Source: a virus. From it: a stretch of DNA of 28,369 nt. Below, one piece after another: positions 4,158 to 13,138 of the stretch. Each line of letters begins with the position of its first letter. The stretch's first letter is position 1. The notes beneath the pieces were generated by a model. The model was not told the origin of the DNA. It was given only the letters and a program-made list of their open reading frames with translations, and made no database searches. Location of the stretch: the IMG/VR virus record IMGVR_UViG_3300049841_000047, positions 1-28,369 of that record. The stretch is one strand, 5' to 3'. The translations under genes and the position numbers were made by a program.

Positions 4158-4961
4158 CTATTCGCACTGGTTATAGATACTCGTACATGTGCGCACCTCG
4201 TCATCCCAGAAATCAGGCTGATTAGGCTGCGTCACGTAGGCGCGCACGTCTGCCAGCGTGGGGATTCGCACGCCAGTCTTTGGATCGCGGCGGGAGCAGA
4301 ATCGATCAGGGATATAATTCGGCGGAAAGAATGTCCTGCCCGCCGCCGCCGCCTCAAGTTCGGCCATCCGATCCCAAATCTCCGGCAACGTCTCCGTCAT
4401 CCGCTTTAGCTCGGCGTGATTCACCTGCACGCACGGGAAACACCCGACGCGACCCGCCCCGAGCTTGTAAAGCGGATTCGGCTCAACACCGTGCCGCTCG
4501 TGCATGGCGAACACGTCAGCGGCCGTCCAGGCGTATAGCGGGCGCTCGATCCAGCAATCGTAACGGTCCGAGAAGAACCGCGGACCGTCGTCAGCCCGCT
4601 TCTGCGATTCGTCCGCTCGCACCCCTTGATAGACGGTCGCCTCGTCGTGTAGTCCGCGCACGTAATCCACCGATGGCGTCGTCTTCAATTCGTCGGTGCA
4701 GAACCGCGCCTTCGCGCTGGGCACGCGTTTCTTCAACGTGACAAGAGACACCATACCGGCGTATTTCTCAGACTTTAGGGTGAGCAACCGGCCACCGAGG
4801 ACGCTGGCGTTGATGTGGGCCACGTACGCCATCGTGATCGGGTGCTCCCACCCGGTGTCACAGAACATCGGCAGAAATCCATCTGCGCCCCACTGCTCAA
4901 TAGCCCACAGCACGAGCGCGGTTGAATCCTTACCCCCGCTGAATTGCACAATGCGAATCAT
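4158..4961 (-). CDS. Phosphoadenosine phosphosulfate reductase family protein (PP-loop ATPase)
   Basis: The 267-residue protein has the PP-loop SGGKDS at residues 8-13, used by this superfamily to bind and activate nucleotides. It continues with FCTDELK (87-93), GVRADES (113-119) and GCFPC (173-177). C88, C174, C177 and C222 could hold an iron-sulphur cluster as in DndC-like members. The length fits phage CysH/DndC-like proteins. True PAPS reductases supply sulphite for cysteine; phage versions lack a proven role, with sulphur metabolism, tRNA thiolation or DNA modification all proposed. No other sulphur-modification gene (DndD, DndE, deazaguanine pathway) is in the window. The family call is firm; the reaction is not. 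Confidence 0.85.
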   Translation of the reverse strand: MIRIVQFSGGKDSTALVLWAIEQWGADGFLPMFCDTGWEHPITMAYVAHINASVLGGRLLTLKSEKYAGMVSLVTLKKRVPSAKARFCTDELKTTPSVDYVRGLHDEATVYQGVRADESQKRADDGPRFFSDRYDCWIERPLYAWTAADVFAMHERHGVEPNPLYKLGAGRVGCFPCVQVNHAELKRMTETLPEIWDRMAELEAAAAGRTFFPPNYIPDRFCSRRDPKTGVRIPTLADVRAYVTQPNQPDFWDDEVRTCTSIYNQCE

Positions 4962-6359: not shown

Positions 6360-6631
6360 TGGTCCACCCCCATCTTCTCGGCCAGTGCCCGCGTGATCCG
6401 CAGATCGCTCAGGCAGTGCGCCGCAATCGCCTCCCCTCGTGCGCGGGCCGTCTGTGCATCACTGGCGCAGCGCACCGGCACGCGCCGCTCAATGGCGGCA
6501 AGTGCCCGATTGATCGTGCGCGGGTGCACGCCGTATTCCCGTGCGAGATCAATCTTGCGCGGGAGCCGTTGCGTCATCGCGCGCACCGTCAGATCGACAA
6601 TGCGATCCATCACGCGGCCACTATGCGCCAC
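6356..6631 (-). CDS. Helix-turn-helix DNA-binding protein
   Basis: The protein has 91 residues from a GTG at 6631 that shares bases with the upstream stop (TAGTG); an ATG at 6610 would give 84. Residues about 25-48 read as a HTH, with KIDLAREYGVHPRTINRAL giving helix, turn and recognition helix. This resembles excisionase/MerR-like or resolvase-type HTHs. The remainder is a helical tail with two Cys. It lies just downstream of the exonuclease-annealase gene, so it could be a regulator or a recombination accessory protein. Confidence 0.55.
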   Translation of the reverse strand: MAHSGRVMDRIVDLTVRAMTQRLPRKIDLAREYGVHPRTINRALAAIERRVPVRCASDAQTARARGEAIAAHCLSDLRITRALAEKMGVDQ

Positions 6632-8124
6632 TAGTCGATCTCCTCAGGCGCATACAACCCGAAGGTCACCTCAGGCGCGACCAGCCGCGCCAACTTCGCC
6701 GAGGCCCTAGCCACAAGCATATCTGCGGGATACTTCGCCCACCCCGAGCCGGGCTTGACGAGCCCGGCGGCCTGCGCCTCGTCGATGGAATACGACAGGC
6801 TCATCTCCGGGTCATCACCGCGCTTCGCGATGAACGTGGCGCGCTGCGGCGTCCGCTCCGTGCACCGGAAGGACTTCACGAGCCCGCTCTTGAGGACCAG
6901 CGCGCGGATGGCGTCGGCCGCGAGCACCGGCTTGCCCTGCACGATGTGAAACGCGCGCAAGCTCGCCATCGCCTGCAACCCAAATTCGCGCCCGGCCATG
7001 ACCGTCATCAAGACGGACTGTGCGTTGCCGTAGGCACCGAACAGCCGCGAATCAAAGATGAATTTGGCTAGAACGCGCGCCTCGTCCAGCGAGCGCGGCT
7101 CAAGTTGCCGCTCCCATTCGAGCGGCGCGGCGGCGAGCACCTGCGCCGGCATAACGTGACGGGGCGTCAGCGAGACAGACGCCTCGGCCACGGTTGCGGC
7201 CTGTCGTGAGTCAGCCGGCGTCACCGACGACGGCGCGATGCGGTCATCGACCGACTGCGTGTCACGCACGGCCGCGTGACCATTGAAGGTGTCCGGCGTC
7301 GGCGGTGGCGTCAGCGCCTCGATCAAATCCTGTTGTGCATCAGTCATCGGTTCGTCTCCCTGAGCCACGCGCTCAGCCGCAATCTCCTCAAACGGTATCG
7401 GCACATCGGTCCGCATCTGCACTAGCGTCCGCACGTCATCGACGCGCGACTGAAAATCGCGCAGGCTCTTGGCGAGCCCCTCTGTGAACACGCGCGGGAA
7501 CTCATTTAGCGCGTAGTAAATACCCTCGATGGTCTCGTGCGCCTTCAGTAGCTCGGCCGCCCGCTTGGGGCCGATCCCGACCGCGCCCTTGATGTTGTCC
7601 GACGCATCTCCGACCAGTGTCAGATAGTCGGTCATCTGGTCCGGGCGCACGCCGAACTTGATGAGCACCTCCTGCGGGCCGATGATGGCGTTGTCGCGTA
7701 GGCTCTTGGCGGTGACGCGGTCGCCGATGAGCGCGAGCAAGTCCTTGTCGGCCGAGACAATCTGCACCTCGACTCCGGGCAGCGTTAGCGCGTGCGCCGT
7801 GGCGGACGCGATCACGTCGTCCGCCTCGAAGCCGAGCGCCTGCCAGATCGGAAATCCGTCTGCGCGCAGCGTTTCAATCGCGAGGGCCATCTGGTGATAG
7901 AGCGGCTCGCGGTCGGTCGCGTCACGCTGCGCCTTATAGGTGGGATCAAGGTCGCGGCGGAAACTCTTCTTGCTATCGACACAGATCGCCGTATGCGGCT
8001 GCGCTAGTTCGCGCACGCGCCGCACGGTGCCCTGGCTGACGGCGTCAGGGTTTGGGTTCACCGTCTCTGTGTGCCAGAGCGGATAGACAATCGACGAGAG
8101 ATCAATCAGGGTAATGGATGTCAT
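6631..8124 (-). CDS. Fusion of FEN-type 5'-3' exonuclease and RecT-type single-strand annealing protein
   Basis: The 497-residue protein joins two recombination enzymes. Residues 1-270 form a FEN/PIN-like 5'-3' exonuclease with D8, an [12 protein letters not shown] clamp/arch (56-67), EADD (100-103), SADKD (124-128) and GDASDN plus GIGPKRA (172-189), so the metal-binding acids look intact. A Pro/Ala/Thr-rich linker (about 271-335) follows. Residues 340-497 match Rec[44 protein letters not shown] (461-474) and FGLYAPEEI. Exonuclease would resect 5' ends and the annealase bind the exposed strand, as Red exo and Bet do as separate proteins. The ATG at 8124 is chosen for its ATGA overlap; a GTG at 8139 adds five residues. 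Both halves are one uninterrupted frame. Confidence 0.85.
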
Positions 8125-8591
8125 GATCTCACCGGGCACGGGATGAGGCCCGCATCAAAGAAGTGAATAAACTGCTCCGCGCGCGGGCGCAGCAGCGCCG
8201 GCACACCGGAGATGCCAGCGCACGAGAAGGTCCAGGCCATGGGGCAGTTCTCCCATGTATGGCACGTCCAGTGCGCAGCGGCCCCGTCGAGCGGCTGCCC
8301 ACCGGCCGTTAACAGCGCCGGCACCACGTCCGCGAGATAGGCCTCCCATCTCTCCCCGGTTGGTAGGTAGGCCCCGCGTAGGTCGGCCCCGCCCAGGTCG
8401 GCCCCGCGTAGGTTGGCCCCGCCCAGGTTGGCCCCGCCCAGGTTGGCCCTGCCCAGGTTGGCCCTGCCCAGGTTGGCCCCGCGTAGGTAGGCCCCGCCCA
8501 GGTCGGCCCCGCGTAGGTTGGCCTTCTGCGCTGCAACATCACCAGTCCAGATCAATGAGCCGTTGATATGCAGGATCGTGTAGGTATTCAT
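8121..8591 (-). CDS. Pentapeptide-repeat protein
   Basis: The 156-residue protein has eleven consecutive A(N/D/Y)LxG-type pentapeptides (residues 24-78), which should form about three turns of a right-handed quadrilateral beta-helix. The repeats start after a short strand-rich N-terminus ([14 protein letters not shown]). The C-terminal region (79-156) is a distinct domain with several Cys and Trp ([11 protein letters not shown]) and ends [10 protein letters not shown], a pattern I recall in other phage pentapeptide proteins. Pentapeptide proteins can mimic DNA (MfpA, Qnr) and shield gyrase, but the repeat stretch here is short and the role is open. It is translationally coupled to the exonuclease-annealase gene. 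Confidence 0.8.
8366..8515 (-). repeat. Ten tandem 15-bp repeats coding the pentapeptide stretch
   Basis: Ten 15-base units run in register on the + strand, of the form GGTyGGCCCCGCGTA or GGTTGGCCCyGCCCA, with an eleventh degenerate unit after 8515. Several adjacent units are identical, including the pairs at 8411/8426 and 8441/8456. The near-identity at silent positions suggests recent unit duplication rather than old divergence. Unit number could change without breaking the frame. Confidence 0.85.
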
Positions 8592-12475: not shown

Positions 12476-12662
12476 GACCCGCCGCAACAGCCTCGGCACC
12501 GTGCTGCCGCCCCGCCAGCCGGACCCGCGCACCTACTGTGAGCGCCAGGCCCCGAATACCGTGGTGGTCTGCGCTCGCTGCGGCACCGAGGCGCATGCGC
12601 GCGTGATCTGGCCGCAGATGCGCTGGCCGCAGCCATGGCTGTGCTCGCGGTGCGCGCGATGA
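12465..12662 (+). CDS. Zinc-ribbon protein
   Basis: ATG 12465 is preferred; a TTG at 12408 would extend the frame over the 26-residue ORF. The 65-residue product has CARC (about 36-39) and a C-terminal CSRC (61-64), spaced as in a zinc ribbon, with Trp and Pro around the second knuckle. Its stop overlaps the methyltransferase start (ATGA). Function unknown. Confidence 0.5.
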   Translation: MTNETRRNSLGTVLPPRQPDPRTYCERQAPNTVVVCARCGTEAHARVIWPQMRWPQPWLCSRCAR

Positions 12663-13138
12663 ATAGCGCTCTCATGTTTAGCCGGGCGAGTGATGAATGG
12701 GCCACGCCATACGACTTGTTCCAGCGACTGCATGCTGAGTTCTGGTTTACGCTCGACGCGGCGGCCACGGCTGAGAATGCCAAGACGCCCGCCTATCTCT
12801 CGGCCGAGCTCGATGCGCTGACCCTGGCGTGGTCTGGGACGGTCTGGCTCAACCCGCCCTATTCACAGTGCGCGCGCTTCATTGCCAAGGCGGCCGCGGA
12901 ATCCCGGCGGGGCTGTACGGTGGTCTGTCTCGTCCCGGCGCGCACCGATACGCGGTGGTTTCACGCGCACATCTGGGATGCGGATCAGCATCAGCCGCGC
13001 CCTGGCGTCGAGGTGCGGTTCCTGAAAGGCCGGTTGAAGTTTGGCGACAGCCCGAATAGCGCGCCGTTCCCGAGTCTGATCGTGATCTTCAGGCCGGCGC
13101 CGGCCCAGGCGGATCTGCTGGCGCCCGTGATAGAATGA
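12659..13138 (+). CDS. Phage Dam-type DNA N6-adenine methyltransferase
   Basis: The 159-residue protein has the short phage Dam layout: SDEWATPYDLFQRLHAEF (11-28) followed by TLDAAATAEN, then the catalytic NPPY (65-68) and the strand VVCLVPARTDTRWFH. The family (PF05869 type) transfers a methyl group from S-adenosylmethionine to adenine N6, often in GATC-like sites. The length is close to other phage members. A second start at 12674 is possible. No cognate restriction enzyme is nearby, so the likely role is protection from host restriction or control of packaging or transcription. The target sequence cannot be read from the protein. Confidence 0.85.
   Translation: MNSALMFSRASDEWATPYDLFQRLHAEFWFTLDAAATAENAKTPAYLSAELDALTLAWSGTVWLNPPYSQCARFIAKAAAESRRGCTVVCLVPARTDTRWFHAHIWDADQHQPRPGVEVRFLKGRLKFGDSPNSAPFPSLIVIFRPAPAQADLLAPVIE

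Follow-up and report, generated by a model that had tools for sequence, protein, structure and literature searches.

Can a phage carry DNA end resection and strand annealing on a single polypeptide? An end-resecting enzyme and a strand-pairing protein are ordinarily two separate proteins. Lambda Exo and Redβ act as a two-component complex (PMC7496540), and reviews describe recT beside YqaJ or DUF3799 exonucleases (PMC8093625). An earlier note on the DNA analyzed here had claimed that one frame encodes both a FEN-type 5'-3' exonuclease and a RecT-like annealase. The DNA, hereafter the window, spans the whole of an IMG/VR virus record (28,369 bases), which may itself represent only part of the phage genome. 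Its genes include those for a Holliday junction resolvase, a replication initiation protein and a head module with terminase large subunit, portal (phrog_156), major head protein (phrog_283) and head closure Hc3, and we infer from this gene layout a P22-like podovirus. A phage Dam-type adenine methyltransferase gene was also observed (12635-13138, plus strand; PF05869, E = 1.1e-27).

The frame had been located correctly, and it is read on the minus strand from 8124 to 6631 (Table 1); translation of the plus-strand frame over the same interval meets stops throughout. The motifs singled out in the nuclease half, FEADD (residues 99-103), SADKD (124-128) and GDASDN (172-177), and those in the RecT half, a 14-residue stretch (461-474) and YAPEE (491-495), all lie in this single frame. 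The start codon of the gene overlaps the stop of the gene upstream (ATGA) and the gene after it starts at its stop codon (TAGTG), junctions that suggest an operon-like arrangement. The upstream gene (8121-8591, minus strand) encodes a pentapeptide-repeat protein, and a PAPS-reductase-type gene (4158-4961, minus strand; PF01507, E = 2.6e-20) lies downstream on the same strand.Table 1. Features of the fusion gene, in window coordinates
Feature	Position	Strand	Basis
FEN-type 5'-3' exonuclease–linker–RecT gene	6631..8124	(-)	497 aa + stop; ORF and translation
5'-3' exonuclease N-terminal (PIN/resolvase-like) domain, residues 5-158	7651..8112	(-)	PF02739, E 9.5e-25
5'-3' exonuclease C-terminal (SAM fold/H3TH) domain, residues 159-246	7387..7650	(-)	PF01367, E 4e-21
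Candidate internal ribosome site: GGGAG, 8-nt spacer, ATG (M260)	7345..7360	(-)	motif + family-wide enrichment over permuted codons, not over synonymous shuffles
Disordered Pro/Thr/Ala/Glu-rich linker, residues 275-333	7126..7302	(-)	AlphaFold2 pLDDT < 50
RecT/Redβ-type annealing core, residues 334-497	6634..7125	(-)	phrog_561, E 6.3e-22; core ends at stop

The nuclease half had been described as of the Pol I/T5 type, distinct from lambda Exo and RecE, with an intact-looking active site, and the profiles bear this out. PF02739 and PF01367 match in the expected order and both over the cut-off (Table 1), which identifies genuine exonuclease domains of the PolI/FEN class, and the best PDB sequence matches of residues 5-246 are Taq, other PolI nuclease domains and Xni. 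The N-terminal domain carries D8, D50, E100, D102, D103, D126 and D128, and the C-terminal domain carries D173 and D176. Eight of these positions align with Taq residues: D50, E100, D102 and D103 with D67, E117, D119 and D120, and D126, D128, D173 and D176 with D142, D144, D188 and D191. The full metal-binding acidic set is invariant in 49 fused proteins, as are R56, Y63, K64 and R67.

Among PHROG families, phrog_561 (RecT-like) matches residues 343-497 and phrog_4171 matches with E = 1.8e-14, so the RecT assignment proposed for residues 340-497 stands. The search against PF03837, suggested as a check, gave a divided answer: the window's own RecT half stays below the cut-off (E = 0.04), and 44 of 49 homologous halves match (best 2.7e-9). 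A profile built from the RecT halves finds Redβ (7ujl, E = 5.9e-4). Consistently, the AlphaFold2 model of the RecT half has a pLDDT of 90.5, and its top two PDB matches in Foldseek, among 350,542 PDB chains, are Redβ 7ujl (1.9e-4) and Listeria RecT 7ub2 (5e-3), both with TM of about 0.55. The predicted fold of residues 334-497 is that of a RecT/Redβ core.

In the full-length AlphaFold2 model, two confident domains are joined by the linker, and the whole-chain pTM of 0.58 means that no defined domain arrangement is predicted. The linker is the fastest-evolving segment (mean pairwise identity 21%; dN/dS 0.312) and ranges from 32 to 142 aa among homologs. In each of the 64 fusions collected (see below), no more than 0-12 aa separate the end of the RecT core from the stop codon, and no C-terminal domain follows the core, whereas stand-alone RecT relatives extend 45-241 aa beyond it. 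This domain is not part of the Pfam RecT definition, so membership of the core is unaffected. In Redβ, the C-terminal domain is involved in the contact with Exo, and C-terminally truncated Redβ anneals but does not recombine (PMC5052646). By analogy, the covalent tether, a flexible linker of ~60 residues, could take over the job that lambda Red gives to a non-covalent contact through this domain. Oligonucleotide recombination also needs the Redβ C-terminal domain, and a nuclease tether need not replace that function.

A gene of this kind could be an artefact, that is, a frameshift, a chimeric assembly or an overprediction merging two adjacent genes, and the earlier note had named a frameshift or assembly join as one outcome that would overturn its claim. 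A first search returned two full-length homologs with 49-51% identity. A search with the alignment of these two, and one made later, yielded 64 distinct fused sequences, window included, with a common architecture and aligned junctions, and identity to the window goes down to 31%; two further fused sequences lie beyond the 64. They come almost wholly from viral contigs of many assemblies, with one fusion (L090) on a betaproteobacterial MAG contig. Sixty-four distinct sequences from many assemblies rule out a frameshift or assembly join. Furthermore, the median dN/dS in close pairs is 0.195 for the exonuclease and 0.046 for RecT, which indicates purifying selection on both halves, and UniProt A0A6J5MUB0 from an uncultured Caudovirales phage (462 aa) is homologous over the whole chain, with 42% identity over 503 alignment columns. 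What speaks for an artefact is that two variant fusions with other annealases (see below) are each found on one contig. For FEN-RecT, an artefact is already refuted, and we regard it as exceedingly improbable. The FEN-RecT fusion is a real, conserved single-chain architecture.

A0A6J5MUB0, which also ranks first among the structure matches over the full chain, is named "PIN_53EXO domain containing protein", which covers the nuclease half only; no description of its RecT half or of the fusion was found. No record among 50,697 phage records in INPHARED or 72,556 plasmids in PLSDB covers 80% of the fusion protein, and a Burkholderia plasmid match has no annotated gene under the FEN match and no sign of RecT among its listed genes. 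In the open-access full texts searched, no exonuclease-annealase fusion is reported; a FEN-type single-chain exonuclease-annealase is apparently undescribed so far.

In the RecT tree, 63 fused halves fall on one side of a branch opposite 16 stand-alone RecTs (SH-aLRT 97), a topology consistent with one origin of the fusion. On the exonuclease side, a quick tree does not settle whether there was a single origin, nor the placement of L051 and L069; the AU test with the Mgm101 row placed outside gave P = 0.09.

Carriers of the fusion were compared with records carrying a stand-alone RecT. The carrier set comprises the window record and 29 other fusion records, 28 of the 30 being FEN-RecT. By Pfam profiles, and in records that may be incomplete, YqaJ, DUF3799 and PDDEXK_1 have no match in any of the 30. 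DNA_pol_A is likewise absent (0/30), and on this basis acquisition of a whole PolI was rejected. Exactly one RecT match occurs in each of the 28 FEN-RecT records; no second, stand-alone RecT or RecE was found in the 30. Among 16 stand-alone-RecT records, YqaJ is present in 3, PDDEXK_1 in 5 and FEN in none. Among the cultured or named records covered, ten have a RecE/ExoVIII/YqaJ/Cas4-type or PD-(D/E)XK exonuclease, by annotation or profile, as the adjacent or near-upstream gene. In these sets, nuclease type and architecture thus go together. The contrast drawn in the earlier note, a different nuclease in a different architecture, holds: the nearest stand-alone RecTs have genes of their own, in most cases with a PD-(D/E)XK exonuclease encoded upstream.

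Three further loci deserve mention in their own right. MW202753.1, a complete phage genome record, contains an unannotated RecT gene (L006:3983-4789:+). Escherichia phage vB_EcoP_PAS61 (L224, OQ921333.1) has two adjacent frames, 1036-1857 and 2031-2735, each annotated RecT and perhaps a split gene. A DUF3799/PD-(D/E)XK exonuclease gene (L086:6683-7537:+) lies at or just past the end of a stand-alone FEN gene.

The fusion shares with lambda Red the combination of a 5'-3' exonuclease and a RecT/Redβ-fold annealase, the RecT core matching 7ujl by profile and predicted fold. Lambda Red, however, consists of two proteins, its Exo is PD-(D/E)XK-type and its Redβ retains the C-terminal domain, whereas the fusion is one chain with a FEN-type nuclease and without that domain. 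The RecE/RecT-type modules of actinophages (Propionibacterium E1/Anatole, Thermobifida P1312, Gordonia SmokingBunny, Microbacterium Appa and Mycobacterium Luna22) include some of the closest stand-alone RecT relatives by sequence, often adjoining an exonuclease gene. They differ in having two genes, a RecE/YqaJ/ExoVIII/Cas4-type exonuclease, a RecT tail of 59-241 aa and no FEN in their genomes. The PolI N-terminal domain, Xni and T5 FEN belong to the same fold family as the nuclease half and have the full acidic ligand set, but they are fused to a polymerase or stand alone, whereas the partner here is an annealase and the carriers have no PolA. Having neither a PD-(D/E)XK-type exonuclease nor two polypeptides, the fusion works like Red/RecET but is not a member of it.

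As for catalysis, coupling and the role in the infection cycle, we infer from the domain families that the fusion is a phage homologous-recombination enzyme, a single-chain resection-plus-annealing recombinase resembling Red/RecET with a non-homologous nuclease, and we give this reading a probability of about 0.72. Judging by its family and intact active site, the N-terminal nuclease would, at double-strand ends or gaps, degrade the 5' strand, and the nascent 3' single strand would be handed directly to the tethered RecT core. The core, as expected of the RecT/Redβ family, would oligomerize and anneal the strand to its complement, and annealing may serve to form concatemers, to repair DNA and to exchange genes. 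The best reading of the tether would be that it couples resection with strand loading, and the fused unit would take the place of the RecE+RecT gene pair found in the nearest relatives with a stand-alone RecT.

Alternatively, the main task of the nuclease could be the trimming of 5' flaps or RNA primers, either at the replication fork or where strands have annealed, while RecT anneals strands at lagging-strand gaps, so that the enzyme finishes joints rather than resecting double-strand ends. The FEN/PolI class of the nuclease points this way: the hallmark substrates of FENs are 5' flaps, the family is known more for flap cleavage than for processive resection, and annealing by RecT/Redβ at forks is an accepted mode. 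We nevertheless consider this unlikely. The carriers have no PolA of their own, so no partner dedicated to primer removal is apparent, and they have no other recognized 5' resection enzyme, so some 5'-3' resection probably falls to the fusion.

The resection-plus-annealing recombinase may not be the only product of the gene. An in-frame internal ATG at 7347, with GGGAG 8 nt upstream, would yield a 238-aa RecT, and the annotated start has a weaker ribosome site. Across the family, 21 of 43 lineages (65% clusters) have a linker ATG preceded, at the usual distance, by a Shine-Dalgarno-like motif; permuting the linker codons leaves 8.0 ± 2.4. The motif is most frequent at the proper offset (26% vs. 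a 7% base rate). Among the main ATG starts, 17 of 38 carry such a site. These figures would fit one gene with two products, the full-length exonuclease-RecT and a RecT-only protein started in the linker, such that few nuclease-bearing subunits seed filaments of mostly free annealase. Synonymous-codon shuffles, however, show no excess of internal-start sites (37 observed vs. 34.7 ± 3.5), and the site is absent from about half of the family. A peptide motif, the acidic E-E/D-x-x-M, within an acidic linker would account for the signal equally well. Two products are thus possible but doubtful, and they refine rather than exclude the single-chain explanation.

Two loci carry other annealases. In L061, FEN is fused to an Mgm101p domain (PF06420, 3.4e-28; Rad52_Rad22, 9e-4) in place of RecT. 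Its exonuclease domain is 80% identical to that of the FEN-RecT loci L042/L043, and the flanking genes are collinear with theirs on both sides, which indicates a swap of the annealase within the gene. The order is reversed in L081, where an ERF domain (PF04404, 9.5e-14; phrog_155, 6.5e-17) precedes a FEN that groups with PolI-type nucleases. We raise only tentatively the wider proposal that single-chain phage recombinases are widespread and unrecognized, with FEN as a reusable partner of RecT, Mgm101/Rad52 and ERF. The annealase half would be exchangeable, and many lineages would also produce a free annealase from an internal start, by which the nuclease-to-annealase ratio would be set.

Several neighboring features were also observed. 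FEN-type nucleases in L088:5224-6642:+, L076:5515-6768:+ and L078:4129-5325:+ have 150-200 aa of unmatched N-terminal sequence, which may represent unannotated partner domains or non-coding frame extension. At 22 loci, the window not among them, a conserved family of ~134-183 aa is encoded directly or soon downstream of the fusion (e.g., L031:7617-8054:+ and L028:7429-7908:+). It has the motif DGxYGDPxxKAKxPRDWxGP...SECPPEYLDLLAxRYDYFA, and neither Pfam nor PHROG matches it. In a few members the C terminus is an acidic tip resembling that of SSB, such as DDDIPF, and the family is possibly a recombination accessory. An SSB (L090:2716-3132:+; PF00436, 2.6e-17; tail DDEIPF) adjoins the L090 fusion, and an unmatched protein, OB-like by eye and with the tail DDDQIPF (L048:7617-7982:+), adjoins that of L048. 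An SSB partner is not a general rule, as a canonical SSB was found in only 2 of 14 records, adjoining the fusion in both.

Here a natural fusion joins an annealase to a non-homologous nuclease and does without the usual annealase contact domain, which makes covalent coupling directly testable. The fusion is also a single-gene candidate for double-stranded-DNA recombineering in hosts to which two-protein modules do not transfer well. From the annealase swap, found on one contig, the pairing of nuclease and annealase appears modular, and surveys that seek the exonuclease of RecT only in a neighboring gene would miss the fused group. Made as one chain with a nuclease of an unrelated type, the enzyme of this phage and of dozens of its uncultured relatives points to a phage recombination machine of different construction.
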